From Candidatus Acidiferrales bacterium (GTDB lineage: Bacteria; Bacteroidota; Ignavibacteria; Kryptoniales; JAKASW01): a stretch of 53,266 bases of DNA. The first letter of the stretch is position 1. Each line of letters starts with the position of its first letter. The notes below the pieces were generated by a model, which did no database searches, was not told the origin of the DNA, and was given only the letters and a program-made list of their open reading frames with translations. The position numbers and the translations under genes were made by a program. The stretch covers positions 1 through 53,266 of the forward strand of contig DATJAY010000007.1 in NCBI GenBank assembly GCA_035515795.1. Direction: 5' to 3'. Shown here one piece after another: positions 21,410 through 48,178 of the stretch.

Positions 21410-21542
21410 GGTATTCTCTTTTTAAAAATCTTCGGACGGTCCAATGGGTTAATCCACAAGTCCACTATTCTCACGCCGGAACGCTCCGTATAAGCCATGT
21501 GTGGCAGCTTCTTTGCAGAAACATTGTTCTGCATTCCAGCTC

Positions 21543-23939: not shown

Positions 23940-24013
23940 AGATTGCCCTTAATTTTGAATATTAGATTCTAAGTTTGAATTAAGGATTCATAATTCAAAC
24001 TCACATTCAAATT

Positions 24014-25510: not shown

Positions 25511-25543
25511 ATACAGCTCCTTATTGTTTAGCAATTGACCTTT

Positions 25544-27940
25544 TCATTTGCCCATTACAACTTTTACAACATTTTGGTCTTTCATACAATCAACCGGAAT
25601 AAGATTCCTTTCGATCTTTTTTCCATTAACCGAAATTTCCTTGATTCCCTTTTCAACTCCATCCGGATTCGATACTCCGATGTGCAGCTTCTTGCCTCTA
25701 AAAACTCTCGCGACCTCGAATGACTTCCAGCTTGGTGGCACACACGGATCGATACGGAGACCATCGACTTCCGGTTTAATTCCCAAAATGAATTGCGTCG
25801 CCGCGTAATACGACCATGCTGCCGATCCTGAGAGCCACGGGAGTCTCGACGCGCCTCGACGCGGACTCCGCGGGCTGTTTATGAATTGGGAATAGACATA
25901 AGGCTCAATTTCCCTTACTTCAGCTCGCTCGCTATACGATGCCGGCATATAGGCCCGAAAAATATCAAACGCCTTGCCGCCATGTCCCAACATGGCCTCT
26001 GCGATGACCGCCCAACCTTGTGTGTGGCAAAAGATGGAGCCGTTCTCTTTCATACCCTTATTGAAAAGCGCAGCCTTCATCACCGAAATGTCGGTCTTCT
26101 CATAAGGCGGATCGCAAATCGTCAAGCCGTATTCCGTCCAGAGATGCTGATGAGTTCTTTGCATGATCAGTTCGGCGGTCTCTTTCGAGGCATGTCCACT
26201 AATCACCGCCCAGGTTTGCGGATTCAAGAAAATTTTGCCTTCATCATTTTTGCGAGAACCGAATGTTGCACCGTCTTCACGATAGCCGCGCAAGAACCAT
26301 TCTCCATCCCAGGCATGCTTCGCCAGACTTTCATCCAACTTCTCAAGATTTTTCTTAGACCACAAGATTTCCTTTTTGTTGCCCAGATACTCATTCACTT
26401 CGATGTAAGTATCCAGTGCATATCTCAATTGAAATGCCACAAAAACCGATTCGCCTTTTTGTCCAAGCTGGAGACAATCATTCCAGTCAGCCGCCAACCC
26501 GCACGGCAAACCATGCCGTCCGGAATGGTCCAAACTAAATTCGATGGCACGCCTCATGTGGCCGAGCACAGTATCTTTGCCTTTGTCCGCGTATGGAAAA
26601 ACCTTCCTATAAAAATCGACATGCCCGGTCTCTTTCACATAGGCCGGCACGGTATTGAAAAGCCACAGACAATCGTCGGAACGATATTCATTTTCCGACG
26701 GCGGTTTCTCGTGTCCTGGATGATGGCTGAATTGTTTCACGACAGGCATTGCTCCTCCCGTAGAGGCCTGTCCCGTCATCATCAGCTCAAGACGTTTCTC
26801 AGCTTCATCGGGGATGATGGACAAAACCCCCAGCAGGTCTTGAACCGTATCGCGGTAACCGAGTCCGTCACGCTCGCCTGCATACACGATGCTCGCTGCA
26901 CGCGACCATACATATGTAATCAGACAGTTGTACGGGCTCCACATATTCATCATACTGTCGAACTGAGGGTCGGGGGTTTTTACAGTCATGGACTTAAGTC
27001 TCGAATGCCAGTGAGATTTTACGTTTTCAAATTCATGCTGAGCCTTTTTGATGTCCGAAAATTCACCGACCGCCGCCCGGCCTTCCACCTCGGCCTGACC
27101 GATTCCCAGCAGGACTAACAATTCCTTCGATTCACCGGGATTAATTTCTAAGTCGGTTTGAAAAACGCCGCAGCCGTTGTCGCCGACGGCAATTGAATTC
27201 CCACATCGTCCCTGTTCCACAACCAGTGGATTCGCATATCCACGATAAGCGCCGATAAACTTTTCGCGATCGGTATCGAAACCGACGATGTCTGCACCGA
27301 CTAATGCAAAAAACATGTGCCGCGATTGAGGGTCCGCAGCAAAATCGCCGCGCACAACCGGCAGGAAAGGATTTGTGCAGTGATTGATGATGTTGTCGAC
27401 GACTTTCATCTCCACGATGAACTGCGTGTACTGGAGGTTCACCCAGTCCATCCACATCTGCCAATGGGATGAATACTCGATGAAAGGGAATATACTCAAC
27501 CGGCGTTTCTGATCGCTTAGGTTCGACACCTTCAGGAGCCAGCATTCCATTTGTTTCTCCAGCGGGACGAAGTAGGTACTTTCAGTGCGGACGTTCGAGT
27601 ATTCCGACTCGATAACCGTATAAGCTGTACCATGACGACAAATGGATTTGAATTTATCCAAAGGTTTGCCGGTCGGCTGCCACGATGCCGACCAGAAGTC
27701 ACCCGAATCTTTATCGCGCAGATAAAAGTACCTGCCGGGTTGGTCCATCGGTAGATTGTTCGGGCGCCATCTAGTAAACCGCCCCTGTGCTGCCGAGTTG
27801 AAGAAGCTGTATCCGCCGGCGTTGTTGGTGATAATCGCGCCGTACTCCGTCGAGCCGAGATAATTACTCCACGAGCGCGGCGTATCAGGCCGCGTAATTA
27901 CATATTCTTTGTTTTCATCGTCAAAGTAACCAAATTTCAA
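25544..27940 (-). CDS. GH94 glycoside phosphorylase (cellobiose phosphorylase-like), copy B
   Basis: Also 798 residues, cytoplasmic and clearly paralogous to copy A over its whole length. The catalytic WND acid is Asp488 in GLAADWNDCLQLG; copy A has DWNDTLRFG, so residues next to the acid differ. The N-terminal beta-sandwich contacts (GSTEYGAIITNNAGG) and the C-terminal GLRIDPCVP are kept. Differences cluster around residues 155-205 and in the loop after the acid, regions that could set acceptor length or identity. It follows the small outer-membrane gene by 34 bases. Confidence 0.9.
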   Translation of the reverse strand: MKFGYFDDENKEYVITRPDTPRSWSNYLGSTEYGAIITNNAGGYSFFNSAAQGRFTRWRPNNLPMDQPGRYFYLRDKDSGDFWSASWQPTGKPLDKFKSICRHGTAYTVIESEYSNVRTESTYFVPLEKQMECWLLKVSNLSDQKRRLSIFPFIEYSSHWQMWMDWVNLQYTQFIVEMKVVDNIINHCTNPFLPVVRGDFAADPQSRHMFFALVGADIVGFDTDREKFIGAYRGYANPLVVEQGRCGNSIAVGDNGCGVFQTDLEINPGESKELLVLLGIGQAEVEGRAAVGEFSDIKKAQHEFENVKSHWHSRLKSMTVKTPDPQFDSMMNMWSPYNCLITYVWSRAASIVYAGERDGLGYRDTVQDLLGVLSIIPDEAEKRLELMMTGQASTGGAMPVVKQFSHHPGHEKPPSENEYRSDDCLWLFNTVPAYVKETGHVDFYRKVFPYADKGKDTVLGHMRRAIEFSLDHSGRHGLPCGLAADWNDCLQLGQKGESVFVAFQLRYALDTYIEVNEYLGNKKEILWSKKNLEKLDESLAKHAWDGEWFLRGYREDGATFGSRKNDEGKIFLNPQTWAVISGHASKETAELIMQRTHQHLWTEYGLTICDPPYEKTDISVMKAALFNKGMKENGSIFCHTQGWAVIAEAMLGHGGKAFDIFRAYMPASYSERAEVREIEPYVYSQFINSPRSPRRGASRLPWLSGSAAWSYYAATQFILGIKPEVDGLRIDPCVPPSWKSFEVARVFRGKKLHIGVSNPDGVEKGIKEISVNGKKIERNLIPVDCMKDQNVVKVVMGK

Positions 27941-27974
27941 TTTATCGTCCTTATTGATAATGATTCATAGGGGA

Positions 27975-28583
27975 TTACAGCAAAATTGAAAACCCCACCA
28001 AGAGACCGACGTGAGAAAAGACGTAGTCATACTTGTATGAACCATAGCCAAAATCTTCGCTGCTAGACCACGCATGGCTTCGGTAGTTCACTTCAGCACG
28101 CAAAACTACAGACTGAGTTAATAAGAATTTTGCACCGGCACCCAGGTTGATGACCCCTATGTCGAATTTGTCGCTCATTTGTACAACCGTGCCGCCGCCC
28201 ATCATAGGTACTTGGATAGAATTTGAGATACCATAACCGGCTCGAACGAACAGCGCTGCTTTCGAATTGGGAGGAAGGTAAGTATAAGAAAGATTAAGTA
28301 GAAAATACTGAGCCGGTTGCGCATGTTGAACTGCCATGAGACTGATTTCAGGCTCGACTGAGAGACCATCAAGCAAATAGTATCCGGGAGAAATTGAGAA
28401 GAAAAGGAATTGTTCGGTTTGAGAATCGCTAGATGAATTGCCTAAATAAGTCCCGGTACTCTTATCTGTGGTTGAGCCGAGGCTGCCCGAAAACGAAAGT
28501 TCTAAATCTCCCTTGTTGAATTGTGCGTTGCTCATCGACGACGTTAACAGCAAAAAGCCGATTACTGCCACCATGGATTTCAT
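27975..28583 (-). CDS. Small outer-membrane beta-barrel protein
   Basis: A 202-residue protein with a clear signal peptide (about residues 1-20, ending SNAQ) followed by alternating hydrophobic strands, glycine-rich turns, and a final strand ending in hydrophobic residues (VGLLVGFSILL). This is the pattern of OmpW/OmpA-like 8-strand barrels (outer-membrane protein beta-barrel domain). It has no assigned substrate. Its place inside the sugar run, between GH130 and GH94 genes, hints at a role in passing oligosaccharides or in the envelope response to them. Confidence 0.65.
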   Translation of the reverse strand: MKSMVAVIGFLLLTSSMSNAQFNKGDLELSFSGSLGSTTDKSTGTYLGNSSSDSQTEQFLFFSISPGYYLLDGLSVEPEISLMAVQHAQPAQYFLLNLSYTYLPPNSKAALFVRAGYGISNSIQVPMMGGGTVVQMSDKFDIGVINLGAGAKFLLTQSVVLRAEVNYRSHAWSSSEDFGYGSYKYDYVFSHVGLLVGFSILL

Positions 28584-28743
28584 TGTTGCCTCCCTTATTA
28601 TTAGTTTTGTTCACATCGGGCGTCGCATGTACCGGAAGAACATGAACACTGCAAACAGCCGCGACCTGTTTAAAATATAAATGATTCCTCAATTTTACCA
28701 GCCTAGAAACAGGGATCGCCAACGGCATATTTTGGTTTGCCTT

Positions 28744-28759
28744 CTGACCACGTGATCAG
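28744..28759. promoter_or_regulatory. Near-perfect 16-bp palindrome downstream of GH130
   Basis: CTGACCACGTGATCAG is symmetrical apart from one mirrored mismatch pair, with a CACGTG core. It lies 15 bases after the GH130 stop codon, in the 191-base gap before the barrel gene. No T-run follows, so a terminator is unlikely; an operator or a transcript hairpin is possible. A hypothesis from symmetry alone. Confidence 0.3.
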
Positions 28760-28774
28760 GTGCAGGCCTTCGAT

Positions 28775-29767
28775 TTACCTTTGTGGATGACTCTGAACAA
28801 AACTGACAATTTCATCTACGGTCGAAAACACGAGTCCTGTCACTGTATCAGCAGCGCCGTAGTAGATAGCCAATCGTCCGGTCGCACCATCACATAACAT
28901 GGCGCACGGGAAAACCACGTTCGGCACATCGCCGACGCACTCATATATTGTCTGCGGAGACCAGAGGTAAGGCTCGGCTCTTGCAATCACTTTCCACGGC
29001 CTCTCCGGATCAAGAAGCACCGCTCCCGCACTGTAAACAAATCCGTTGCATGATTGAAGAACGCCGTGATATATCAGAAGCCAGCCTTCAGACGTCTCGA
29101 TAGGAATCGGTCCCGCTCCAATCTTTGTGTATTGCCACGAATTCCCAACTGGACTCATGACATGGCGATGCTTGCCCCAGTAACAGAGGTCGGGGCTTTG
29201 ACTTAAGTAAATATCGCCGAACGGTGTATGCCCGCTGTCGGACGGGCGCGAGAGCATCACAAAATTTCCTTTTATCTTACGAGGGAACAAGACGCCGTTT
29301 CGATTAAACGGCAGGAAGGCATTCTCGAACTGATGAAATGTCTCGAAATCATTTGTCCAACCCACGCCGATTGTCGGGCCATGATAATAATTGCACCACG
29401 TGACGTAGTACCGATCCTCGATCCACACAACGCGCGGATCGTAGCCGTAAACGAAATTGCCGACTTCAGGATCATCACACTTGAACTTCAATGGGCTCGG
29501 ATCGAGCTTCCACGTCAGTCCATCCTTACTGAATCCACGATGCAGTCTCATTTGTCTCGCCCAGTTGTCGCATCGGAAGACGCCCGCGAACTCGCCTTTG
29601 TACGGAACGACCGCACTGTTGAATATGCTGTTTGAAGTCGGCAGGAGGTCGCGCGGTATCACAGGATTTTTCGAATATCGCCACACCGGCTTGTTATGTC
29701 CAGCAGGTTTCTCTTCCCATGGTAAATTTGGAATCGGATTTTGATTGATGATTTTGACTGAGCTCAT
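28775..29767 (-). CDS. GH130 beta-mannoside phosphorylase
   Basis: A 330-residue five-bladed beta-propeller enzyme. The catalytic Asp110 lies in the family motif [17 protein letters not shown], and the [10 protein letters not shown] block near residue 230 and [17 protein letters not shown] block near 295 are also GH130 marks. GH130 enzymes phosphorolyse beta-1,4-mannosides to alpha-mannose 1-phosphate. The length is nearer to mannooligosaccharide phosphorylases (subfamily 2, about 330) than to mannosylglucose phosphorylases (subfamily 1, about 390), so either substrate is possible. The epimerase at 33974 would make mannosylglucose from mannobiose. No signal peptide, so cytoplasmic. Confidence 0.9.
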
Positions 29768-29786
29768 ATTATCCTCGCTGTTTCAT

Positions 29787-29807
29787 AAACAATAAAGACT
29801 ATTGTTT
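29787..29807. repeat. AT-rich inverted repeat at the esterase stop codon
   Basis: AAACAATA and TATTGTTT form a perfect 8-bp arm pair with a 5-base loop, overlapping the stop codon of the esterase gene and lying just upstream of the GH130 ribosome binding site. It lacks G-C pairs and a clean T-run, so it is more likely an mRNA stability or translation-coupling hairpin than a terminator. Confidence 0.35.
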
Positions 29808-31826
29808 CCAATTGTCCGTCCTGAAGGTTGGTGCCGGTAGCCCTTCCTTATTAAAGAACGTTGCTTCATCGGTGTTGGTCCATGTGTATCTCACCGCAAT
29901 CGGTTTCTTTATCTCATCGCTATAGACAATCAACTTTCTTCCCTCGACTTTGACATTCGCCTTGACAAAGACGCTGTCTTTCCCCGCGATCAAGAAATTC
30001 GCATTGCCGCTGCTGTCTTTGATAATCAAACCGCCATCGGCGTTATCGAACGAGAGGAAAATTTTCCCGTTTTGAATTTTCATTGAGCGGTACAAAGGTC
30101 CGGAGTAAATGACTTTCTTGTGATAATCTTTGGCGAGTGCCCACAAAGCCAAACGCGAGCCGACATCCTGCTTATCGGGTGGATGAATTGTCGAGGTTGG
30201 AGCGATGTCGAGCGTGACTGCAATACCCGTGTTCGGAACGGAGAGAGTGCGGAATTGGGCATCGCGAACCACATATGATTTTGATTTCTCACCATACGCG
30301 AAGGGTGCTATCTGCACGTAGTAAAACGGGAAATTGCCTTCCCCCCAATCGGTCCTCCAATTCTTGATCATGAGTCTGAACAGCGCCTCATAATTATCGT
30401 AATCGCTCGGCAGATTCGAATTCGATTCTCCCTGATACCATATCGTCCCCTTGATGCAATACGGTATAAGTGGGGCTGTCATGCCGTTGAAAAGCATGGT
30501 CGGCGTGTCCGGACCGACGTCGACAGAAGTTTTCGGACGACTGTTGAACTCACCTGCGGCACCATACCTGTAGAATTTGTTATTCATGAATTCCGCGACA
30601 GGCAAATATTTCCAATCGCCGGAAAGCGAGATGCCCGACAAAGTGTCCGGCTTGCTATAGATTTGCATCTTGACGTCATTTCCCCAGATACCGCCGCCTC
30701 CGCCCGTGTCGATAACTCTGACAGCAATCACCAGAACAGAATCCTTCACAATTCCCTTAGGGATTTCGTAAATCCTAGGAGTCGCCCAGAATCCGCCGCC
30801 GAGCATTCCGCCGACCTTCACGCCGTTTACATATGTTTCGTCCATATCATCGATGGGGCCAAGCGCCAGCACAAGATTTGTGTCAAGCCAACTTTTTGGT
30901 ATCTCGATTTTTTTCCTGAACCAGACCGTGCCATCGAACTCTCCTACTTCCGTTGCTTCCCAGTAGGTCGGCAGCTTCATGGTACGCCAACTACTGTCAT
31001 CAAAATCAGCTCTGTGACAAAGGCTGTCTTCGAAATCAAGATTCTCAAATTGATGCGCCGGCGGCTTTGCACTGATGTCGATCACGGGGTGGCTGAATAT
31101 CCAGTCGTTCAGCTTCTTCACCTGACCACGCGCGCTGTCGATCTTCTCAACGATCGGCGTGTAGTCAGGCATCCCGCCTAGAAACTTTCCGCCTATCCAC
31201 GATTGTATCCTTGTTCCTCCCCAGCTCGACACGATCAAACCGATAGGCACATGAAGCTCTTCGTAGAGTTTTCTTCCGAAAAAATATCCCACCGCGCTAA
31301 ACTTTGCCACGGTCTGAGGGTTGCACTCGTTCCAAGCTCCCACGCAATTAAACTCGGGCTGGGCCGAAACGGCTCTCGCTACGGTGAACAGTCTAATGTT
31401 TGGAAAATTGGCAGCCTGAATTTCTTCTGCGGAATTCTGGATCGGATTGTCCGGAGGCCATCCGGCAAGTGGCATTTCCATATTCGATTGACCGGAACAC
31501 AGCCAAACTTCTCCGAGCATTACGTTCTTATATATGATTGTCGAATCTCCAATCTGCAGGCTCACCTCATACGGACCTCCCGCCTTGACCGTCTTCAATT
31601 TGACCTTCCAGAGGCTGTCGGGTAAGACTTTTGTCTTCGCCGATGCTCCCCAGCTCGCTTTAATCGAAACGGGTGCACCGGGCGTTGCCGTGCCCCAGAA
31701 AGTTACATTTGTTTTTTGCTGCAGGACCATGTTGTCAGAAAATATAGACGGGATTTCAATAAACGGTTTGTTTGACTCCGCCTTTGCAATCACAATGAGA
31801 AACAAGAATAACGCAATGAGTTTCAT
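29799..31826 (-). CDS. Sialate O-acetylesterase-type carbohydrate esterase
   Basis: A 675-residue exported SGNH esterase. A signal peptide covers about residues 1-17. Block I is GEVWLCSGQSNMEMPL with the catalytic Ser114, a second block GTIWYQGESNS lies late in the chain, and the His block is TIHPPDKQDVG. Between them, roughly residues 260-400, lies an inserted beta-sandwich with GH2-like features (WFRKKIEIP). Although the family is named after sialic acid, such esterases in plant-polysaccharide loci remove acetyl groups from mannan or xylan. Here deacetylation of acetylated glucomannan is the likely job. It lies 31 bases before GH130 in the same run. Confidence 0.85.
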   Translation of the reverse strand: MKLIALFLFLIVIAKAESNKPFIEIPSIFSDNMVLQQKTNVTFWGTATPGAPVSIKASWGASAKTKVLPDSLWKVKLKTVKAGGPYEVSLQIGDSTIIYKNVMLGEVWLCSGQSNMEMPLAGWPPDNPIQNSAEEIQAANFPNIRLFTVARAVSAQPEFNCVGAWNECNPQTVAKFSAVGYFFGRKLYEELHVPIGLIVSSWGGTRIQSWIGGKFLGGMPDYTPIVEKIDSARGQVKKLNDWIFSHPVIDISAKPPAHQFENLDFEDSLCHRADFDDSSWRTMKLPTYWEATEVGEFDGTVWFRKKIEIPKSWLDTNLVLALGPIDDMDETYVNGVKVGGMLGGGFWATPRIYEIPKGIVKDSVLVIAVRVIDTGGGGGIWGNDVKMQIYSKPDTLSGISLSGDWKYLPVAEFMNNKFYRYGAAGEFNSRPKTSVDVGPDTPTMLFNGMTAPLIPYCIKGTIWYQGESNSNLPSDYDNYEALFRLMIKNWRTDWGEGNFPFYYVQIAPFAYGEKSKSYVVRDAQFRTLSVPNTGIAVTLDIAPTSTIHPPDKQDVGSRLALWALAKDYHKKVIYSGPLYRSMKIQNGKIFLSFDNADGGLIIKDSSGNANFLIAGKDSVFVKANVKVEGRKLIVYSDEIKKPIAVRYTWTNTDEATFFNKEGLPAPTFRTDNWKQ

Positions 31827-31937
31827 ATTAATCCTCGAAGTTGAGTAAACATTTTACCATCGGCAGGTGTAAATATGACGACACAAAAGTCAAAAGAAAC
31901 GCTGCTCGAGAACTGACTTTCAGGTTGCATTCTGAAT

Positions 31938-33791
31938 TCAATATGCCGTTACAATATTTGGATCTGGGTTTTCTATTTTCGAATAAATTATCTCAACGCG
32001 GCTGAGCTGAGCCACGTCGTTGAATCTTATTTTCAAATACCTGCTGTTCGGCGGAAACTCCGCACATGTATAGACTGCCGGCGTAAAAAACCTGTAGAAA
32101 TTCTTATAAGGAGGAAAAGTTTCCACTTTTGCGCCAAGCGGCTTCAGGGTATTTACAGAATCAGATGCGGAAAAATCCAATCCGCATTCTCCGTTCGTCA
32201 AAAACACTTCTACTCTAAATGAATCGATCGGGTGTGGAACTCGATATATAATGTAGGAACCAGCCGTTCCCCTCAGCCTGCTGAAATCATCTTTAGCTCT
32301 GTAAGAATCCTGGTATGTGAGAAACTGCAGGCTATCCGACTTCATAAAAATTTTCGTAGAGTCACTCAACTCATCCACCAACTCTTTGCAATTGACATCG
32401 ACTGGTCCGACAGCATTCGAAGGCGAAGAGACCCCCGAAGAATTCTCGGCGCTCACTCTGTAAAGATAACTTTTCCCGAGCTGCGCGGTTGTATCCTCGA
32501 AAAGTGGACGGAACACTTCGCCTGCGTCGCTCACACCGTCTGCGACGATTTGCCATTGAGTAGAATCACCCGCCATCCTCTGTATCTCATACGAAGAAGC
32601 GCCGGCAGAACCCTGCCATGAGATATGATATACATCAGGCACGGGTAACATGGTCGGCGAATCCGGGATCGGAAGCGGCGGCTCCGGCAGACTGTCAATC
32701 GCATACGCGGCATTTCTCATGATATCAACAATTTCTTTCTCGTGATAAATGCTGTCCGAGGGAAAACCGGGAAAACGGTACGATCCCACTCCATAATTTT
32801 CCCCATGTTGGTAGAAGCCGCCGTCACGACTGTGAAACCTCAAACTCCATATCATTATTCCTGAAATGCCGTTATCGATCACCGTATCGACAAGGGCTTT
32901 TGCGTCCTGAGGATTTCTAAAACCAAATTCGCCGATGAAATAAGGTTTCCTCCCTTCCGTCAATTTACGATTCGAAAGTGCATCGCGAACCGCATTACTC
33001 AGAGTTGTATAATAATGAGTTGAAAGCACATCGAAGTTTGAGTCGGCGACCTCATTCTCCGTAAGAAGCGGCGCGTGCATCCCCTCAAGCACTAAATGAT
33101 TTTTGTCTATGCGCTTTATGTAAGCCGCAATTGTATCCTGCCATGAGAGAGGTGTTTCAAGTTCATTGCCGGTTTCCCACCCTAAAATGGCTTTGTCATC
33201 CTTATAGAGGATGCCGGTGTAAACATTTTTTCTATGCAAAACATAGCTGATCGTCTTCTCAAAATCGGAAATTAACTGCAGGTCCGTCCAGAAATCGTTC
33301 GGCTGCTTGCCTCTAAATGCTGCATATTCCGCCCTTCCACCCCACCACCACCAATTATCGACGAAGGGGATTATCAGCCGCACTCCTTCTTCATTTGCAG
33401 TTTGGAGCACCTTGTCCAATGCGTGGAAGGCCCGCTCGTCAAACTCTCCCGGCCCTTCGACATGACGAATTATGTTCCGTGATTCTCCTGCTCTCCGAAC
33501 TGACAAAGTATAAATCCGCGCCACTTTCCCGCCTTCAATCTTGATAGTTCTAAGAGCGTCTCTAATTTCAAATTCGGTCGGCAGACGCCAAGGATTTGAG
33601 TCATCAAATGGCAGGTAGTCTTCTATATATGACAGGTTTGGTATATTATATGAAACGAATCTGAACTCTTTCTTCCCATCCATCAGCTTGTCTTTGTTTG
33701 CGGAGATAAAATTCTCGAATTGACCCGACGCACCGCAACCCGCGTTCAGGATACTTACGGCAAAAATAATCGCCCATAGAAATCGCCTCAT
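31938..33791 (-). CDS. GH5-like lipoprotein with C-terminal Fn3-like and beta domains
   Basis: About 617 residues. The frame extends to a TTG at 33812, but the ATG at 33789-33791 gives MRRFLWAIIF and a lipoprotein signal ending NAGC (Cys19), so I chose it. The catalytic domain spans about residues 35-375, with an acid/base Glu210 in GWETGNE and nucleophile Glu288 in FIGEFGF, a clan GH-A layout close to beta-mannanases. A fibronectin-III-like segment (about 390-470) and a C-terminal beta domain with no recognised name follow. Probably anchored in the outer membrane and acting on extracellular mannan-type chains. First gene of the minus-strand sugar run. Confidence 0.8.
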   Translation of the reverse strand: MRRFLWAIIFAVSILNAGCGASGQFENFISANKDKLMDGKKEFRFVSYNIPNLSYIEDYLPFDDSNPWRLPTEFEIRDALRTIKIEGGKVARIYTLSVRRAGESRNIIRHVEGPGEFDERAFHALDKVLQTANEEGVRLIIPFVDNWWWWGGRAEYAAFRGKQPNDFWTDLQLISDFEKTISYVLHRKNVYTGILYKDDKAILGWETGNELETPLSWQDTIAAYIKRIDKNHLVLEGMHAPLLTENEVADSNFDVLSTHYYTTLSNAVRDALSNRKLTEGRKPYFIGEFGFRNPQDAKALVDTVIDNGISGIMIWSLRFHSRDGGFYQHGENYGVGSYRFPGFPSDSIYHEKEIVDIMRNAAYAIDSLPEPPLPIPDSPTMLPVPDVYHISWQGSAGASSYEIQRMAGDSTQWQIVADGVSDAGEVFRPLFEDTTAQLGKSYLYRVSAENSSGVSSPSNAVGPVDVNCKELVDELSDSTKIFMKSDSLQFLTYQDSYRAKDDFSRLRGTAGSYIIYRVPHPIDSFRVEVFLTNGECGLDFSASDSVNTLKPLGAKVETFPPYKNFYRFFTPAVYTCAEFPPNSRYLKIRFNDVAQLSRVEIIYSKIENPDPNIVTAY

Positions 33792-33866
33792 ATCAGTCGT
33801 CTCTGATTTCAATAAAATTCTTATGAAGATAACACTGTTCGCCCTTAAGATGAAGAGAAAATTTTC

Positions 33867-33895
33867 TTGAACCGTATGTCAAAAAGTATTATCAT
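33867..33895 (+). promoter_or_regulatory. Probable promoter of the epimerase-GH5 unit
   Basis: TTGAAC (33867-33872) and TATCAT (33890-33895) are separated by exactly 17 bases; the -10 matches at five of six positions. The start point would be near 33902. A perfect minus-strand -35 hexamer TTGACA (33877-33882) overlaps the spacer, so the divergent lipoprotein gene may start from an interlocked promoter, though I found no good -10 for it. Confidence 0.5.
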
Positions 33896-33903
33896 TTTTT
33901 CGA

Positions 33904-33916
33904 GAAAGGGTCTTTC
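33904..33916. promoter_or_regulatory. Operator-like palindrome at the epimerase transcription start
   Basis: GAAAG-GGT-CTTTC is a perfect 5-bp palindrome with a 3-base centre, placed at the inferred start point of the plus-strand promoter. The position is ideal for a repressor, but the arms are short and no regulator gene is present in the window to pair it with. Confidence 0.25.
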
Positions 33917-33973
33917 ATTCAACCTTTTAGAAATCTGTTAAGAGAAACCGCGCGAATCCGCAGGAGAACTTGA

Positions 33974-35365
33974 ATGTCAGAAGATAATCGAAGCATAATC
34001 AAAAAGATGATCCCGTCATTGAATCAGAGCTTGCTCAAAAAGTGGTATCCCATGGTTGTCGACAAGGTTAACGGCGGCTATTATACTAATATTACCTACG
34101 ATTGGAAGTTAGAACCCGAGCAGCCTAAAATGGCGGTAACCCAGGGGCGACACATGTGGACGGCAGCAAAGGCGGCGATGTACTTCGACGAAGGTGTTTA
34201 TGCAGACGCAGCGAAGCACAGGTTCGACTTTTTCAGGAAAAAGATGTGGGATCAAAAATACGGCGGCTTCTACCAGATGCGCGACCAGAAAGGTGAAACA
34301 ACCGATTACCTCGGATTCTTCGATGAGAAACGCACATACGGAAATGCATTTCTGATTTACGGCCTGGCCGCTTTGTACGAGTTAACCGGAGATGCAAAAG
34401 TTCTCGACTTTGCCAAGGAAGCTTTCCACTGGGTTGAGGAACATGCCAAGGATCCGAAGGGCCTGGGCTATTTTCAATTCCTGACGAGAGATGGAAAACC
34501 AATAAGCAAAGAAGGCGAGTACAAAACTAAAGCTGACGACACCGTAGAGGCGGGATACAAAGACCAAAATTCTTCGATCCACCTGCTTGAGGCTTACGCA
34601 GAATTATATAATGTATGGCATGACAACATGCTGAAGGAAAAACTTTACGATCTTTTGACTCTCATCAGGGACGTTATCACAGCCCCCGAAGGTTACATGA
34701 ACCTCTTCTTCGACAACGACTGGAAGCCGGTGTCATTTCGAAACGCGCCGAAGGAAGTGAGAGAAAAAAACTACCGGCTGGAGCACGTTTCATTCGGACA
34801 TAACTATGAAACGGCATTCTTGATGTTGGAGGCATCCCACACGCTAGGATTAAAAGATGACGTGAAGACACTGACAGTCGCAAAGAGAATGCTTGACCAT
34901 GCAATCCAGAACGGCTGGGAAAAGGACAACGGCGGATTTGTCGACGCGGCATATTATTTTGCCGGAGAGAATAAGTGCACGGTCATCCAGGATACCAAGA
35001 ACTGGTGGGCTCAAGCTGAAGCGATAAATGTTCTGCTGATGATGTCAAAGATTTTCCCGAAAGAACCGATCTACAAAGATTACTTCACTAAAGAGTGGAA
35101 TTATATAGAGAATTTCCTCCTCGATCACGAGCATGGCGACTGGTTCGAAGGCGGACTTGACAAAGAGCCTCACTACAAAACCGGTAGGAAAGGACACATC
35201 TGGAAAGGTTGTTACCATACGGGAAGATCGCTGATGAATTGCACTAAGATGCTTTCTGAAGACTATCCTGATTTAACTCCGACAAACAAAGGGTTTGCAG
35301 AAGTTGCGAACAGCTTCAATCGAATGATAAATCACTGGAAAAAAGTGGGTGAAAAGCTCCAATAG
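33974..35365 (+). CDS. Cellobiose/mannobiose 2-epimerase (AGE superfamily)
   Basis: A 463-residue (alpha/alpha)6-barrel enzyme of the N-acylglucosamine 2-epimerase superfamily. Active-site histidines match cellobiose 2-epimerases: His276 in FGHNYETAF and His415 in WKGCYHTGRSL; the KNWWAQAEA motif near residue 343 is also conserved. It interconverts glucose and mannose at the reducing end of beta-1,4 disaccharides, turning mannobiose into mannosylglucose for GH130. It is longer than the usual 390-412 residues. No signal peptide, so cytoplasmic. An AGGAG site seven bases upstream supports the ATG. It is 110 bases ahead of a GH5 gene on the same strand. Confidence 0.9.
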   Translation: MSEDNRSIIKKMIPSLNQSLLKKWYPMVVDKVNGGYYTNITYDWKLEPEQPKMAVTQGRHMWTAAKAAMYFDEGVYADAAKHRFDFFRKKMWDQKYGGFYQMRDQKGETTDYLGFFDEKRTYGNAFLIYGLAALYELTGDAKVLDFAKEAFHWVEEHAKDPKGLGYFQFLTRDGKPISKEGEYKTKADDTVEAGYKDQNSSIHLLEAYAELYNVWHDNMLKEKLYDLLTLIRDVITAPEGYMNLFFDNDWKPVSFRNAPKEVREKNYRLEHVSFGHNYETAFLMLEASHTLGLKDDVKTLTVAKRMLDHAIQNGWEKDNGGFVDAAYYFAGENKCTVIQDTKNWWAQAEAINVLLMMSKIFPKEPIYKDYFTKEWNYIENFLLDHEHGDWFEGGLDKEPHYKTGRKGHIWKGCYHTGRSLMNCTKMLSEDYPDLTPTNKGFAEVANSFNRMINHWKKVGEKLQ

Positions 35366-35475
35366 ATAACGGAGACACCAAGGACCCCGATTCATACCGA
35401 CAGAGAAAGTGAAAACTCAAGAACATATCAGGGGAATCTCTCATAGCAATCATCGGTTTTGTAATACGGTACCTA

Positions 35476-36873
35476 ATGAGCAGGAATCAGTCTCTGAGGC
35501 CTAAGCGGGCCTCTCGTGTCGTAATTCTTCTTTGTGTCATAATTTCGTTCTCATTCCAAGGATGTATCACTTTCCTTTTTCAGGGAAAGCCAAATTACGT
35601 CATGGTTAATGGCACACAATTCATTTATAAAGGCAAACCATACTATTATATTGGAACAAACATGTGGGACGGCTGTTATCTCGGAGCACCCGGGGCAATT
35701 GGAGACAGACCAAGATTGATCCGGGAATTGGACAATTTGAAATCATTAGGGATCACCAACTTACGAATACTCGCCGCGTCCGAGAACTCATACATAACGA
35801 ATTCCCTGAAGCCAGCAATCCAAATGAAACCCGGCATTTATGATGAAGATTTGTTGGAAGGACTGGATTTTATTCTTTCCGAAATGAACAAGCGGGACAT
35901 GCACGGCGTGATTTTCCTGAACAATTACTGGGAATGGTCTGGGGGTATGGCCCAATATAATGATTGGGCAAACGGCGGTGGAGGCATCGATCCGGCGAAC
36001 GGCAATTACGGTCCTTTCATGGATTATTCAGCGACGTTTTATGTCAATGAAAAAGCCCAGAAGTCGTTCTTCAATTTTCTAACGGACATCCTGACAAGAA
36101 GAAACAAATACGATGGATGTTATTATTACGAAGAACCGGCGATAATGGCGTGGGAGCTTGCAAATGAGCCGCGTCCCGGAAGAGACGACAAATATCTCAA
36201 AGAATATTATCGCTGGATAGACTCGACGGCGCATTTCATTCACAGCATCGACCGCAACCATCTTGTCACGACGGGCAATGAAGGTTTGATCGGAAGCTTG
36301 ATGGATTCCACAATTTACCTGACAGCGCAAGGGTCCAAGTATATCGATTACGTTACGTTTCATCTGTGGCCCAAAAATTGGGGCTGGTTCAACGCGAAAG
36401 ATATCGCCGGGACATATCCTCGAACTGAGATGAACGCCATCCAATACGTCGATCGGCATATCGAGCTTGCACGTGAACTTGGGAAGCCAACAGTCATGGA
36501 AGAATTCGGGATACCACGCGACAGCGAGTTCTACGCGCCAGGCACGCCGACGACGTCGAGAGACAAATATTTTGAAAAAATCCTGGGACTTATATATGAC
36601 AGCGCCGCCGTCGGTGCACCGATTGCCGGCACAAATTTCTGGGGATGGGGCGGTGAAGGAAGACCTCAACACTCCGACTACAGGTGGTTGCCGGGCGATC
36701 CGTTCACCGGCGATCCGCCGCAGGAGCCGCAGGGATTAAATTCCGTTTACGATGTCGACACAACCACTCTGTTTATTCTCAAAGCCGACGCAATGAAGAT
36801 GATTGCACTCAGCGACACCGAAAGAATTCGCGGTGAAAAGAAAGTGGTGCAGGGCAAAAATATTAAATTCTGA
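35476..36873 (+). CDS. GH5 beta-mannanase-like lipoprotein
   Basis: A 465-residue protein with a lipoprotein-type N-terminus (hydrophobic span then QGC, Cys30) and a GH5 domain close to subfamily 7 mannan endo-1,4-beta-mannosidases. The acid/base is Glu231 in WELANEPRPG and the nucleophile Glu343 in VMEEFGIPRD; the NNYWEWSGGMAQY loop near residue 150 and the GTNFWGWGGEGRP segment near 415 are typical of that subfamily. It probably sits on the outer membrane and cuts beta-mannan internally. It is the second gene of the plus-strand unit, with a weak ribosome binding site. Confidence 0.88.
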   Translation: MSRNQSLRPKRASRVVILLCVIISFSFQGCITFLFQGKPNYVMVNGTQFIYKGKPYYYIGTNMWDGCYLGAPGAIGDRPRLIRELDNLKSLGITNLRILAASENSYITNSLKPAIQMKPGIYDEDLLEGLDFILSEMNKRDMHGVIFLNNYWEWSGGMAQYNDWANGGGGIDPANGNYGPFMDYSATFYVNEKAQKSFFNFLTDILTRRNKYDGCYYYEEPAIMAWELANEPRPGRDDKYLKEYYRWIDSTAHFIHSIDRNHLVTTGNEGLIGSLMDSTIYLTAQGSKYIDYVTFHLWPKNWGWFNAKDIAGTYPRTEMNAIQYVDRHIELARELGKPTVMEEFGIPRDSEFYAPGTPTTSRDKYFEKILGLIYDSAAVGAPIAGTNFWGWGGEGRPQHSDYRWLPGDPFTGDPPQEPQGLNSVYDVDTTTLFILKADAMKMIALSDTERIRGEKKVVQGKNIKF

Positions 36874-43286: not shown

Positions 43287-44894
43287 CTACCTTGGAGACT
43301 TTTGATAAATGTCCGGCTCTTCCTTTCTGGGCGGCGCAATGTGAAAGAACGGATTTTCCTTTACCTTTGGATCCAGTTTTGCAGCATAAACTTTTTTGTC
43401 CATAGCGACTTTAGCCCATTCTCTGGGATCGACATCGATATGCCCTGCAACCATCTCAGGCACATTATAAGTTTTCAAAAATGTCCCGTAGAAATTTGGA
43501 TCCTCTTGCGGCAGTATGAAAGGCTTTGATGAAACACCGTTACTGTCTAAATGACTGAAGTATGGTCTCGCTAGCAATTCATTATCTCGCTTCGAGCTGA
43601 ACACAAACCACCTTCCGTTCCTCGACCATGAGTGGAAGCTATCCGTCTCGTCGCTGTTGCATTCCAATCGCTTGCATTGTTTTGTCTCGAGGTTGAAGAG
43701 ATATAAATCCGCACTCTTGAGATAAATCGGAAAGTTGCTGTATTCCGATCCGGTGAAGAGCACGAACCTGCCGTCGGGAGAAACTCTCGGCTCTGTTATG
43801 CTTCCTCCAAAGTCTTCCGCCGACAGAACTGTTTCCAACTTTCCCCACGTGTTGGTCTGCGCATCATATGGAATTCTCATCAGATCGTATCGAATCCTTC
43901 TCCACGCAAGTCCTCTCCTGCCATTCTGAGTCATCCAAAATGTGTCGAGCTTACTCGTCGAACAAAAATACAGATACTTGCCGTCGGGCGACCAGCAAGG
44001 AAAAGTCTCCATACGGTCAGGATTGGCGAGATCAGGACAGGTAGTGATCATGTTCTGGTCGATCAGGTACAATACGATATCGGATGCCGCATCCAATACG
44101 TCGCGGCATTCGCTTTCCGCATGAAAGAACATGGAAAGCTTGTTCACTGAAAATGCGATGATATTCCCGTTGGGATGCCATGATGGATAGGCGCCGGCCC
44201 TGTTGAAAGAAGTTGCCGTATTTACTTTGCGGATATCGTTTCCTCTTCGGATCAATGTTCCGGATCCCTGACCCCCACGAATATGCATCATCATATACTG
44301 TGGATCGCCGCTTTTGAAATTATGGCAGTTCATGCAGCTGCCATCGGTCAGTTTGTTTGTAAGGATGGGAGTTTCTTCGAATGTCTCTATGTTGCGCTGG
44401 TACAATCCCACATTTCTCCAGAGATGGATGGCGGGGTTAATCAGGCGGTATGCTAAATACGGATCGATTGGATCATTTGAAATTGTATCGACGATCGGAC
44501 GATAGGCGTACCATCTTTCGTCCTTTTTGGCGTGCACTTTCATAACCAGGAGTTTGCCGGCATTCTGGCTCAAAAGCCGCTTCCACTCTTTCATCGGAAT
44601 GAAAAACGATCCGTCCGATGCACTGAGCTCAATCGGATCACCGACAGCGGAGGATATTTGCAGAGTGGCTTCATCGACTTCCTCAATAAGACGGAAATTC
44701 AATGGAGCTATGTTTGGCGGAATAACGATGCCCGCGTAATCAGGATCAATGTGTGGTACCCTGTTGATCGGTGCGCCGATCTGTTTGTCGGGCGACGACT
44801 TCCCGCAGCCCGACGCCATGATTAAAAGACAGCCCGCATATATGATAAGGCCGGAATGTTTCTGAATGGATGTAAACATTTTCCTGCGTCCCAT
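43287..44894 (-). CDS. TolB-like beta-propeller lipoprotein with a c-type heme site
   Basis: A 535-residue protein. A lipoprotein signal ends MASGC (Cys30). After a domain of about 150 residues comes one CMNCH heme-attachment motif (187-191), then at least four PD40/WD40-like propeller repeats with WSPDG-type turns (PSWHPNG, PCWSPDG, PRVSPDG, HSWSRNG) to the C-terminus. This would be a surface or periplasm-facing lipoprotein carrying one covalent heme next to a propeller. I recall similar unstudied proteins in Bacteroidetes, but their function is not established. The start could also be the ATG five codons on. It follows the DUF6057-like gene by 12 bases. Confidence 0.75.
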   Translation of the reverse strand: MGRRKMFTSIQKHSGLIIYAGCLLIMASGCGKSSPDKQIGAPINRVPHIDPDYAGIVIPPNIAPLNFRLIEEVDEATLQISSAVGDPIELSASDGSFFIPMKEWKRLLSQNAGKLLVMKVHAKKDERWYAYRPIVDTISNDPIDPYLAYRLINPAIHLWRNVGLYQRNIETFEETPILTNKLTDGSCMNCHNFKSGDPQYMMMHIRGGQGSGTLIRRGNDIRKVNTATSFNRAGAYPSWHPNGNIIAFSVNKLSMFFHAESECRDVLDAASDIVLYLIDQNMITTCPDLANPDRMETFPCWSPDGKYLYFCSTSKLDTFWMTQNGRRGLAWRRIRYDLMRIPYDAQTNTWGKLETVLSAEDFGGSITEPRVSPDGRFVLFTGSEYSNFPIYLKSADLYLFNLETKQCKRLECNSDETDSFHSWSRNGRWFVFSSKRDNELLARPYFSHLDSNGVSSKPFILPQEDPNFYGTFLKTYNVPEMVAGHIDVDPREWAKVAMDKKVYAAKLDPKVKENPFFHIAPPRKEEPDIYQKSPR

Positions 44895-44906
44895 TATTTT
44901 ATGATG

Positions 44907-46769
44907 TTAGTTTGTCGGAACGACCCGCAACAGGTAGAACCAATAAGTGTCGCCGTAATTCTGGCTAAGTTCTGAATAAATAGACCCAGCGTCGCCATGA
45001 TGTTGGGAAATCAAAGCATAGAGACCCTTGAATCGATCAACGGTTTCTTTCCGTATTCCAATCTTTGATGCGACACTGTCCATCGATGGATTTGTAGATA
45101 GAAATGCCACCAGGGCTTCCTCATACAGCTGCGGCATAGGCCCGTTTTCGTTCATCCTCAGCTGCAGAAAATCATTCGCGAAAAGATTGAGATTTCGAGT
45201 GAGCAGATCGTACATCAGTAAATAACGGTAAGCCATCTCGTTCCGCGGGAATTGGCCCAACATTATCCTGAGATCAATTTCGGGATGATTGTCATTTATA
45301 ATAAAATCCACCTTCGTCATGTAGGTGTGAAGTTGTTGAAGGTCAAACTCCTGTCGGAACTTAGAAGGATCCTTGATACACGCCAGGTAGTGATTTGCCC
45401 AGGAAGATGAAAACGGATTCTGTCTCAGTCGATATAAGAATTCTTGTGCAGCGGCGAAATTACCTTCGAGAATATTAGTTAATGCCAAACGCTTCAGCAC
45501 ATTTTCCGACTCTCCATAATGGGTCAACGCCTCCAATGCCCAATGCTTCGATTCGTTTATGCTCCCCAGTTCGTACATGAAATCGCTGTAGTCTAAAGGA
45601 TACTCGTAACAAATATCGTTTTTTAGAAAGAGACCCTGCGACGCGACATTCTGTCTAAGCCATGTGAACTCCTCATCCATCCTGCCGGTATGATAGTATG
45701 CCTGGACGAAGTGAAAGAGGTTCAAAAGATTCGATGTGGAGCTAGGATTGATGAAAGATAGAGTTTGGTTCCATTCACCGGCATGGGTCGTATAACGAAT
45801 TGCGAGGAATTCCTCATCGCTCTTGCTGACAACTTGCCAAAAACTCATGATCAGCACTGCTGCAGCAACTCCTATCTGGACCAGAATCATACGCAGATTT
45901 GATTTCACATTTCCCTGGCGTTCTGCTCTGTAAAAAAATATTCCTGCGGATGCTAACACAGACACGCCCAGAATTATTTCGAAATAAATCTTTCCTATAG
46001 GTGGAATGCCGAAGGTGTCGCCGACCCACAAAGGAGAGTGGCGGAGAAAGGCGTCAGAAGTTGAAATAATAAATAGATTCGACTTGGCAAGCCATGGTAC
46101 TATCAAAGCTGCCGCGATTAATGCGGCTGAAACAGATGTGCGAGATAGGAAAGAGCTGTTCCCGTTGAATACTTCGTACATAACACAAAGGACTGTGAAA
46201 ATCAGGAGTGCGTACGGCGACAGCAGATAAACGACAATGACGAATGGTACGGTTGAACTCAGTCGAACCCAGTTTCTGGCGGACTTTATGTTTCGATACA
46301 AAGCAAAAGCCGCCATCGCAATAATTAATGCGAGGCTCCCCACCAGAGAATAGTTCGAATCGGTCTGCAAAGCCGCTAGAATAATTGTCGGAATGAGCAG
46401 CGCGATCCACCATTTCCCCGCATGCAGAGTGAGGTTGAGCAGATGGTAAAAGACCAGCACAAGAATAGTCAACAAAGCTGCGCCCAGCAATTCGAATTGA
46501 AGCAACTCCGTCAGGAATGCTGCCGCATAATCCGAAATTCCGCCCGGCAATTGAAGTTGTTCAAGAAAGAAGCCCCTTTCCAGAAAAAATACAGGCTGTC
46601 TCGCGAACTGGATATATTCCGGATGAACAGCAAACCAATAATAAAAAAACAAACAAAGTGACAATCCTACCTCTATCCAGAAGCGCAGTCCGAATCGAGA
46701 TTTCAATGTGTCGGCCATGCGCTGTGAGAAAGATGCTTTTCCACCAGGTCCACTTTTAGTGTTTTCCAT
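44907..46769 (-). CDS. Polytopic membrane protein with TPR-like C-terminus (DUF6057-like)
   Basis: A 620-residue protein. About eight to ten hydrophobic spans fill residues 30-320, then a soluble, helix-rich half (about 330-620) with weak TPR-like periodicity (WALEALTHYGESENVLKRLA and similar). It resembles the uncharacterised DUF6057 family of Bacteroidetes as I remember it; I could not check this. It is only 12 bases upstream of the heme-propeller lipoprotein gene, so the two are almost certainly co-transcribed and probably act together at the envelope. No catalytic motif is visible. Confidence 0.6.
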   Translation of the reverse strand: MENTKSGPGGKASFSQRMADTLKSRFGLRFWIEVGLSLCLFFYYWFAVHPEYIQFARQPVFFLERGFFLEQLQLPGGISDYAAAFLTELLQFELLGAALLTILVLVFYHLLNLTLHAGKWWIALLIPTIILAALQTDSNYSLVGSLALIIAMAAFALYRNIKSARNWVRLSSTVPFVIVVYLLSPYALLIFTVLCVMYEVFNGNSSFLSRTSVSAALIAAALIVPWLAKSNLFIISTSDAFLRHSPLWVGDTFGIPPIGKIYFEIILGVSVLASAGIFFYRAERQGNVKSNLRMILVQIGVAAAVLIMSFWQVVSKSDEEFLAIRYTTHAGEWNQTLSFINPSSTSNLLNLFHFVQAYYHTGRMDEEFTWLRQNVASQGLFLKNDICYEYPLDYSDFMYELGSINESKHWALEALTHYGESENVLKRLALTNILEGNFAAAQEFLYRLRQNPFSSSWANHYLACIKDPSKFRQEFDLQQLHTYMTKVDFIINDNHPEIDLRIMLGQFPRNEMAYRYLLMYDLLTRNLNLFANDFLQLRMNENGPMPQLYEEALVAFLSTNPSMDSVASKIGIRKETVDRFKGLYALISQHHGDAGSIYSELSQNYGDTYWFYLLRVVPTN

Positions 46770-46871: not shown

Positions 46872-48062
46872 TCATCCGGCTGTGACGATGCCGTCAATTT
46901 CAAATAACAACTCATCCCTGCAAACATCCGCCACCATGCAAACAGCGGGAAGATTTTCCAACCCGAGTTCCCTAATTACGCGCTGATACTCCGGAAAATC
47001 GCTCGCATGCTTCAGAAAGACCGTTGCCTGACAAATATCTTCAAGAGATGCGTTCTCAGGTTTTAGCAGAGAATCAACGACGCCGATCGTATTTCTGATT
47101 TGTTCAGCCGGATCGTTAACTCCCAGGGTTCTTCCATCCTCACAAATTGAAGCTGTGCCTGATATGTAAATCGTTTTGCGCTTTTGTTCATGTATCACGG
47201 TGGAGCGTGAGAAGGCGGAGCCATATCGATATGGAGATCGTTGTCTCGAACCTGTATGGTGACAAATTGTGGCTCTATCATCGGCCTTTTGTTCCACGGC
47301 CAGAACATCCATCACTCCGGCCGCTCCATGACGATTCGCGCCCTTGATGCCGGTGCTTGCGGGGAGATAGATTTCCTCGGCTCCCAACCCGTTGAATTTC
47401 GTCGGGATCAGTCCGAACTCCTCGTACTTCGCGTTCCTAACATTATTGAACTCTTTGTACCACTGCAAAATATCCACGAGATAAATCCATGTTCGAACGA
47501 CATTTCGAAACGTCATTCCCTGCCGTTGAAGGAGACGTTCGGTCCGGTCAAACATCAGATGAGTCTGTTTTTCCCGACAATCATTCGAAGGGTTATCATG
47601 CTGAGATCCGTGGATGTCCTGTAACGACAAATACGTTGTGCCATGATATCGCCAGCCGCGGCCGCACGGTATTCCATCGTCGAAAATTGTCCAGATTTTG
47701 TCGCCCGTCTCGTCCTCCCTTATCGCATAAAGCTGGATCCCTGCTAAACCTTCTCCCCATACAGGCTCCCCTTCGATGTATGTGACCGGCGATTCTTCAT
47801 AGACCTCAGAACTGCAAAGGGACTTCTTGCGAGCATCTAGAATATCGCGTTGAATATTGATGCTACCAAAGATACGCTCTTGAACAATATGCAGATTCCG
47901 TTGCTTGAGCACACTTCCAATATGACGGTACAATTCTTCGCACGACAGGATCGGATCGACGTCCTCCCTGCAAACGGACGCCGTTATGTACAGCCGATTG
48001 TCGTCAATGCTGATCGGGTAAACGTTAAGAGATGTTTCTTTCAATACTGGACAAACAGCCAT
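46872..48062 (-). CDS. Tandem RidA-fold protein, chorismatase-like
   Basis: A 396-residue cytoplasmic protein. The C-terminal half is a RidA/YjgF domain (FSRSTVIHEQKRKTIYISGT, DPAEQIRNTIG, ATVFLK), and the N-terminal half looks like a degenerate copy. This two-domain layout, with the LPASTGIKGANRHG loop in the middle, is that of chorismatases (FkbO/Hyg5/XanB2), which hydrolyse chorismate to hydroxybenzoates or dihydroxycyclohexadiene acids. No pigment or quinone genes lie nearby to confirm this, so a plain imine-deaminase relative remains possible. It is flanked by envelope genes with gaps of about 100 and 130 bases. Confidence 0.65.
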   Translation of the reverse strand: MAVCPVLKETSLNVYPISIDDNRLYITASVCREDVDPILSCEELYRHIGSVLKQRNLHIVQERIFGSINIQRDILDARKKSLCSSEVYEESPVTYIEGEPVWGEGLAGIQLYAIREDETGDKIWTIFDDGIPCGRGWRYHGTTYLSLQDIHGSQHDNPSNDCREKQTHLMFDRTERLLQRQGMTFRNVVRTWIYLVDILQWYKEFNNVRNAKYEEFGLIPTKFNGLGAEEIYLPASTGIKGANRHGAAGVMDVLAVEQKADDRATICHHTGSRQRSPYRYGSAFSRSTVIHEQKRKTIYISGTASICEDGRTLGVNDPAEQIRNTIGVVDSLLKPENASLEDICQATVFLKHASDFPEYQRVIRELGLENLPAVCMVADVCRDELLFEIDGIVTAG

Positions 48063-48136: not shown

Positions 48137-48178
48137 AAAAAAGCGTCCCGCTTCGATAGGAGGTGAATCGGGACGCTT
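48137..48178 (-). terminator. Intrinsic terminator after the CBM9-like gene
   Basis: On the minus strand a perfect 10-bp stem (AAGCGTCCCG / CGGGACGCTT) ends in a T-run of six followed by further T-rich sequence. It lies 16 bases past the stop codon. The stem contains the GTCCCG/CGGGAC core shared with the GH3 terminator. Confidence 0.88.

Follow-up and report, generated by a model that had tools for sequence, protein, structure and literature searches.

Introduction

TolB of the Tol-Pal system is an envelope protein composed of an N-terminal domain and a six-bladed PD40-type propeller, HZS-alpha combines a c-type heme with a six-bladed propeller, and the chorismatases FkbO, Hyg5 and XanB2 act in polyketide, xanthomonadin and ubiquinone pathways (PMC7170507, PMC3949708; excerpts, as for every article cited here). 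The Pfam family PF19529, or DUF6057, is a bare name without a function. Features of all of these come together at a locus of Candidatus Acidiferrales bacterium (assembly GCA_035515795.1, contig DATJAY010000007.1; the whole stretch analysed, 53,266 nucleotides long, is called the window), in which a gene of the chorismatase family, a gene for a DUF6057 membrane protein and a gene for a propeller lipoprotein with a predicted heme c follow one another on the minus strand. Each component can be placed in a known family, but together they make up a system for which we could name no match. Its existence as a module is well supported by co-inheritance and adjacency, and its chemistry is what we infer: with a probability of roughly 0.42, the three proteins constitute one envelope c-heme redox module with a shared chorismate-derived aromatic, in which DUF6057 serves as the platform.

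The lipoprotein differs from TolB in its CxxCH heme motif, its lipobox and its DUF6057 partner, and equivalence to TolB was set aside because the TIGR02800 equivalog profile scores 42.6 bits against a cut-off of 343.15. Likeness to HZS-alpha extends to the structure 5c2v_A, which aligns over the propeller with a Z score of 23.4, and HZS-alpha-like genes also lie near related chorismatases. However, the heme of HZS-alpha sits in a different domain, after the propeller, according to the excerpted text of two reports (PMC12758564, PMC12607021). Membership in the HZS-alpha family, suggested by the 5c2v fold match, was rejected, since profile comparison gave 3.4% over 70 columns and no PF18582 match was found at E 0.1. 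In the open-licence literature searched we found no mention of DUF6057, nothing on PD40 with CXXCH or on TolB-like proteins with cytochrome c and polysaccharide utilization, nothing on topic for chorismatase with cytochrome c or heme (by title and abstract) and no experiments on this system; PMC12423496 serves as background only, again in excerpt. An earlier note on this DNA, made from the letters alone, had called the pair its best candidate for an undescribed system, and no description of it was found in print.

Results

The DUF6057 and heme genes are found together from either side. A scan of a contig collection with the heme protein yielded 41 loci, from metagenome-assembled genomes (MAGs) according to their titles, which name Bacteroidetes, Ignavibacteriae, Calditrichaeota, KSB1, WOR-3, Gemmatimonadales, Planctomycetes, Verrucomicrobia, Kiritimatiellae, Lentisphaerae and Chitinispirillaceae. 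A DUF6057 gene directly adjoins the heme gene in 37 of these 41 (exceptions L079, L080 and L089; L058 could not be tested). In the reverse direction, DUF6057 exceeds its cut-off in 36 of 295 Bacteroidales genomes, several of which contain four or five matching genes each, and the heme gene is adjacent in 29 of the 30 loci drawn from these 36 genomes (exception L159). Conservation of the heme motif in the first set is biased by the scan itself, which used [SN]CMNCHN or GI[VE]IPPNI; the unbiased test is the set of 30 found through DUF6057, where CxNCH is present in all 28 loci whose stretch reaches the motif site (one locus, L158, comes from a genome already found via the heme protein). The earlier note had named rare co-occurrence of the two genes and a CxxCH not conserved in relatives as what would refute its proposal, and neither is observed. 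Its positions, strand and 12-base gap for the pair are likewise correct (Table 1).

What the earlier note overlooked is the gene 102 bases upstream of DUF6057, which belongs to the unit, so that the system is larger than the pair that it had described and its interpretation is partly supported. A full-length chorismatase (E below 1e-30; weaker RidA-type matches were not counted) is present in 34 of the 37 genomes that carry the heme protein. Among Bacteroidales, 29 of 36 genomes with DUF6057 have a chorismatase against 18 of 259 without (Fisher p=2e-21, uncorrected for relatedness); both samples are the same 295 genomes, of the order to which G372 belongs, and the overlap of the lists was read by eye. 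Of the 296 genomes sampled from the window's phylum, only 4 carry a full-length chorismatase, and these comprise both genomes with DUF6057 and 2 of the 294 without. The link is also physical: the chorismatase gene is present in 17 of the 41 loci found with the heme protein and lies no more than 150 bases from the pair in 17 of 17, in the orders DUF6057-heme-chorismatase and chorismatase-DUF6057-heme or divergently. G049, a relative at class level, has this gene on the opposite side of the pair. The pair-linked chorismatases fall on both sides of the main division of the family tree, so the link is either old or has arisen more than once.

Copy numbers differ between the components. Two to six full-length heme proteins, 57 together, occur in 20 of the 37 carriers (copies were counted if the match covers at least 400 profile positions, and one of 393 was left out), and among these 20 genomes the chorismatase is single in 18, present twice in one and absent from one. 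One chorismatase for many heme proteins is as would be expected if its product were diffusible and shared, and would not suit a subunit of fixed ratio. In G365, a chorismatase remnant interrupted by stops is found directly ahead of the second DUF6057 gene, with an intact copy beside the first pair. A decayed N-terminal chorismatase piece with stops directly precedes a DUF6057-heme pair in L067 (7747-8010), and that genome has an intact copy elsewhere.

The assignment of the upstream gene to the chorismatases rests on profiles and residues. Pfam finds a RidA-like domain only, and the TIGR04444 (FkbO/Hyg5 chorismatase) cut-off is missed, with 48.5 against 325 bits, in which the gene differs from the FkbO, Hyg5 and XanB2 enzymes; it is also linked to c-heme proteins instead of to their pathways. 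A profile of 18 relatives nevertheless matches the solved chorismatases 5ag3 (2e-29), 5a3k and 4bps (2e-29 to 1e-21). When mapped onto Hyg5 numbering via the profile alignment to these structures, E388 of the window protein corresponds to Glu334, the essential acid of Hyg5, and G238, G302 and C381 to Gly164, Gly231 and Cys318, which in Nat-hyg5 mark the CH-Hyg5 subfamily (PMC7170507). Each of the four is invariant in 55 of 55 relatives, and a product of the 3-hydroxybenzoate type is predicted. A role of the enzyme in polyene or dialkylresorcinol pigments was considered; no pigment genes are found among the annotated neighbours of the loci, to which this search was confined.

The heme protein is predicted to be an exported lipoprotein, with a signal and lipobox Cys30 (present in 68 of the 77 relatives having a residue at that position), an N-terminal domain at about 41-141, CMNCH at residues 187-191 and a TolB-type propeller reaching to about 485, in which the PD40 repeats lie C-terminal to the single motif. 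This layout agrees with that in the earlier note. The AlphaFold2 model has a mean predicted local distance difference test score (pLDDT) of 90.5, and its best fold match is TolB (Z 26.6, root-mean-square deviation (rmsd) 3.1, 276 residues aligned). Exactly one CxxCH occurs in each of 82 aligned heme proteins, which include a few long TPR-fused forms, with both cysteines and the histidine invariant. Several polar residues are nearly as constant (R150 82/82, R206 and D268 79/82 each, H421 80/82, R436 77/82), which seems to be more than a plain electron carrier would need. Their conservation makes H421 and also H240 candidates for the distal heme ligand. The maturation genes by which the earlier note had proposed to check its heme are present in the window's genome (4 PF01578 matches), and PF01578 or ResB is matched in 34 of the 37 carriers. 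The protein thus shows two features expected of a c-type cytochrome, a conserved CxxCH in a predicted exported chain and assembly genes elsewhere in its genome.

Long relatives in Planctomycetes carry the heme motif, propeller and TPR repeats in a single chain. By profile alignment, which covers 412 columns at 100% probability and includes the CxNCH motif, they are true homologues of the heme protein, and one of them precedes and adjoins a chorismatase gene (L239). They differ from the window system in that the TPR part is fused to the heme protein, with no DUF6057 membrane half in the chain. Three such long proteins lie close together in L240 (4541-14132), with TPR repeats in the two that were checked; the genome of this locus, of Planctomycete type, has 13 matches to the heme profile.

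The membrane protein matches PF19529 with 287 bits against a Pfam gathering cut-off of 29.8, over profile positions 11-567 of 569. The earlier note had described both proteins of the pair as without a known function; this one is a member of a named family, though the name is all that the family offers. Its model (pLDDT 85.7) shows about nine membrane-length helices (residues 25-313) followed by a TPR-like soluble half (about 315-620), in keeping with the eight to ten spans and soluble helical half that the note had described.

Related chorismatases were also inspected in their wider surroundings. Stretches were retrieved for each of the 47 Bacteroidales chorismatases and for 16 from other carriers, some of them chosen because a pair lay near, and 61 of 65 stretches show the chorismatase open reading frame (ORF); L236 and L240 had been retrieved on account of other genes, and the rule of keeping the longest ORF hides it in L241 and L244. 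Within 5 kb of the chorismatase, a protein with a heme motif of any kind occurs in 28 of these 61 loci (a propeller with a di-heme MauG-like part in 9, HZS-alpha-like in 4, this family's heme protein in 8, another CxxCH protein in 9), the cytochrome c assembly protein CcsBA in 13 (a raw count), and at least one of the listed features, DUF6057 included, in 34. The order in L238 is DUF6057-heme-DUF6057-heme-CcsBA-chorismatase; L255 holds an HZS-alpha-like gene, chorismatase and CcsBA, and L247 DHOR, porin, PSCyt1-like, chorismatase and CcsBA genes.

Some of these loci deserve description in their own right. In the Bacteroidales loci L255 (2151-8090), L251 (3747-6928), L278 and L283, HZS-alpha-like c-heme proteins adjoin chorismatase genes, with PF18582 present in those of L255 and L251 and CcsBA encoded in L283 as well as in L255. 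In L242 (6257-9185), L252, L253, L263 and L287, the gene of a propeller-type protein with two CxxCH motifs ends about 40 bases or less from the chorismatase gene; those of the proteins that were checked have MauG-like and cytochrome c domains. A block of six further gene families, common to L229 (6258-15402) and L230 (2562-11379), separates pair and chorismatase in both. Clustering of the neighbours of the pair found no family beyond the three in more than 5 loci. Some Bacteroidales pairs have SusC/SusD-type genes and hybrid two-component genes nearby, and both are abundant in Bacteroidales.

The residue counts given here come from sets of 74 DUF6057, 82 heme and 55 chorismatase proteins, assembled from the members of three alignments together with matches at E of 1e-30 or below and at least 480, 420 and 300 residues, respectively, with duplicates removed. 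The DUF6057 alignment (A2) comprises 35 of 46 ORFs, leaving out L003, L032 and L055 for an over-long start, fragments in L063, L065, L068, L078 and L093, and L084. The heme alignment (A3) comprises 39 of 46, without L003, L032, L058, L084, L088, L093 and L094, and the chorismatase alignment (A4) 18 of 19, without L003.

Discussion

How might a predicted cytoplasmic enzyme of chorismate metabolism and a predicted envelope heme protein serve one purpose? We favour a redox or ligand-binding site in the envelope, because the heme motif, the assembly genes and the polar invariants all point there, and a chorismate-derived aromatic as its partner, because the chorismatase points to one. The lipoprotein would be exported, given one covalent heme c and lipid-anchored in the envelope. 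In the cytoplasm, the chorismatase would convert chorismate to pyruvate and 3-hydroxybenzoate or a closely related compound, and this aromatic or a derivative of it could be the diffusible partner, be it redox mediator, co-substrate or heme ligand, common to all heme-protein copies of a cell. The TPR half of DUF6057 would hold the heme protein at the membrane, and the partner or electrons may cross via DUF6057. The actual substrate, frequently in a carbohydrate setting, would be bound at the propeller face beside the heme and be oxidised or reduced there. DUF6057 is most simply a membrane platform, and its TPR half is tied to the heme protein, because that half has its counterpart fused to the heme propeller in the long Planctomycetes forms. 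The carbohydrate setting of the window is a hint, and only a hint, to the substrate. The earlier note had offered electron transfer, redox sensing or substrate oxidation at the envelope, which is still the best class of function, but it left the chorismatase unconnected.

Several observations weigh against this reading. Heme binding, product and substrate are predictions. In the heme-free model, CxxCH begins a strand and not a helix, and three of the 37 carriers (G366, G385 and G389) match neither PF01578 nor ResB, a gap that may perhaps be explained by unfinished MAGs. The product of a chorismatase is not accurately predictable from an alignment (PMC3949708). The co-occurrence has gaps on both sides, as three of 37 carriers (G370, G384 and G389) are without a full-length chorismatase, as are 7 of the 36 Bacteroidales genomes with DUF6057, while a chorismatase is present in 18 of the 259 that lack DUF6057. 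The Fisher value overstates the association, because related genomes are not independent. Finally, 27 of the 61 chorismatase loci show none of the looked-for features within 5 kb.

It is possible that the product of the chorismatase serves heme c attachment instead, as ligand, reductant or in a chaperone-like fashion together with CcsBA, and that heme propellers are merely its commonest clients. The loci with CcsBA (ResB and Cytochrom_C_asm in one chain), several of them with the gene directly adjacent to the chorismatase, and the variation of the partner heme proteins by clade (HZS-alpha-like, MauG-like, DHOR) would fit such a role. However, CcsBA is not adjacent in most DUF6057-type loci, full-length chorismatases are limited to 4 of the 296 genomes sampled from the window's phylum, and many bacteria assemble cytochrome c without a chorismatase. 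We regard this as unlikely, although it fares best among the alternatives.

Less probable still is a signalling role, in which diffusible hydroxybenzoate from the chorismatase would be perceived by the heme-propeller/DUF6057 pair as an envelope receptor. The precedent is 3-hydroxybenzoate itself, a diffusible factor made by XanB2 in Xanthomonas (PMC3949708), and hybrid two-component regulators and SusC/SusD-type genes near some Bacteroidales pairs would suit it. Yet no regulator recurs with the pair across the clustered loci, and up to six full-length heme proteins per genome fit substrate-specific enzymes better than one receptor.

We would give much the same low odds to DUF6057 being a GT-C-type transferase that adds a sugar or a hydroxybenzoyl group to an envelope polymer, with the heme lipoprotein as an accessory. 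The membrane half of the model aligns over about 270 residues with the oligosaccharyltransferases STT3 and AglB, at Z scores of 9.2-10.5 (rmsd 5.4-5.8), under the value of 13 below which the tool advises caution with helical proteins, so that a GT-C-fold likeness is weakly suggested by the model. GT-C proteins with TPR tails do exist, TMTC being an example. However, Foldseek returned no match for the model at E of 0.001 or below, and GT-C enzymes carry a catalytic acid in the first outer loop, where (residues 48-92) the 74 aligned DUF6057 sequences have no acidic column of at least 60%.

The least probable alternative, an ordinary TolB-like structural or assembly lipoprotein whose CxxCH would bind metal or form a disulfide and whose chorismatase link would be metabolic coincidence, could draw on TolB as best fold match (Z 26), on the motif at a strand start in the model and on the three carriers without both assembly families searched, but it is at odds with the wide miss of the NCBIfam TolB equivalog (42.6 of 343 bits), with a histidine as invariant as both cysteines (82/82) and with assembly genes inside the L238 cluster and, by either family, in 34 of 37 carriers.

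It is appealing, if doubtful, to propose that a hydroxybenzoate derived from chorismate acts as the dedicated small-molecule cofactor, or as redox mediator, of an entire class of c-heme propeller proteins in the envelope, comprising the DUF6057-linked lipoproteins, the TPR-fused long forms and the HZS-alpha-like and MauG-like neighbours. Such a pairing of cofactor and heme would be a system of a new kind, found across many phyla. For DUF6057, the analysis supplies a strict heme partner and an enzyme partner that can be tested. Chorismatases have so far been given roles in making polyketide, pigment and ubiquinone precursors (PMC7170507, PMC3949708), and a need of envelope c-heme proteins for hydroxybenzoate, if true, would be a new role for them. 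It would also offer a handle on heme-propeller proteins without assigned function in Bacteroidota, KSB1, Calditrichota, Ignavibacteria and Planctomycetota, sometimes near polysaccharide genes.

Other features of the window

Table 1. Positions in the window of the three-gene unit and of associated features.
Feature	Position	Strand	Evidence
c-type heme beta-propeller lipoprotein (heme predicted)	43287..44894	-	535 aa; ORF, PD40, model, fold match, CxxCH in 82/82 relatives
CMNCH heme-attachment motif codons, lipoprotein residues 187-191	44322..44336	-	translation, invariant columns; position computed from ORF start
DUF6057 polytopic membrane protein	44907..46769	-	620 aa; PF19529 287 bits, model, fold comparison
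chorismatase-family enzyme (predicted 3-hydroxybenzoate synthase type), first gene of unit	46872..48062	-	TIGR04444 below cut-off, profile match, residues, co-occurrence
possible intrinsic terminator between CBM9 gene and chorismatase gene	48140..48154	-	weak

The possible terminator, if real, would mark the 5' border of the three-gene unit; putative terminator sites in the window number 8 against 5.4 expected, and the promoter and terminator scans are near chance. The genome to which the window belongs, as one of its contigs, measures 4.08 Mb, and the DUF6057/heme pair is single copy in it. The earlier note had placed the pair next to secreted polysaccharide enzymes, and this is real here, as a mannan-type locus lies in the same window and GH3 and CBM9 proteins lie nearer to the pair, but the setting is local and no constant of the system. 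The mannan-type utilisation genes (20300-36873) include those for two GH94 phosphorylases, side by side and identical in length, together with GH5-like enzymes, GH130, an AGE-type epimerase, a SASA esterase and an MFS sugar transporter.

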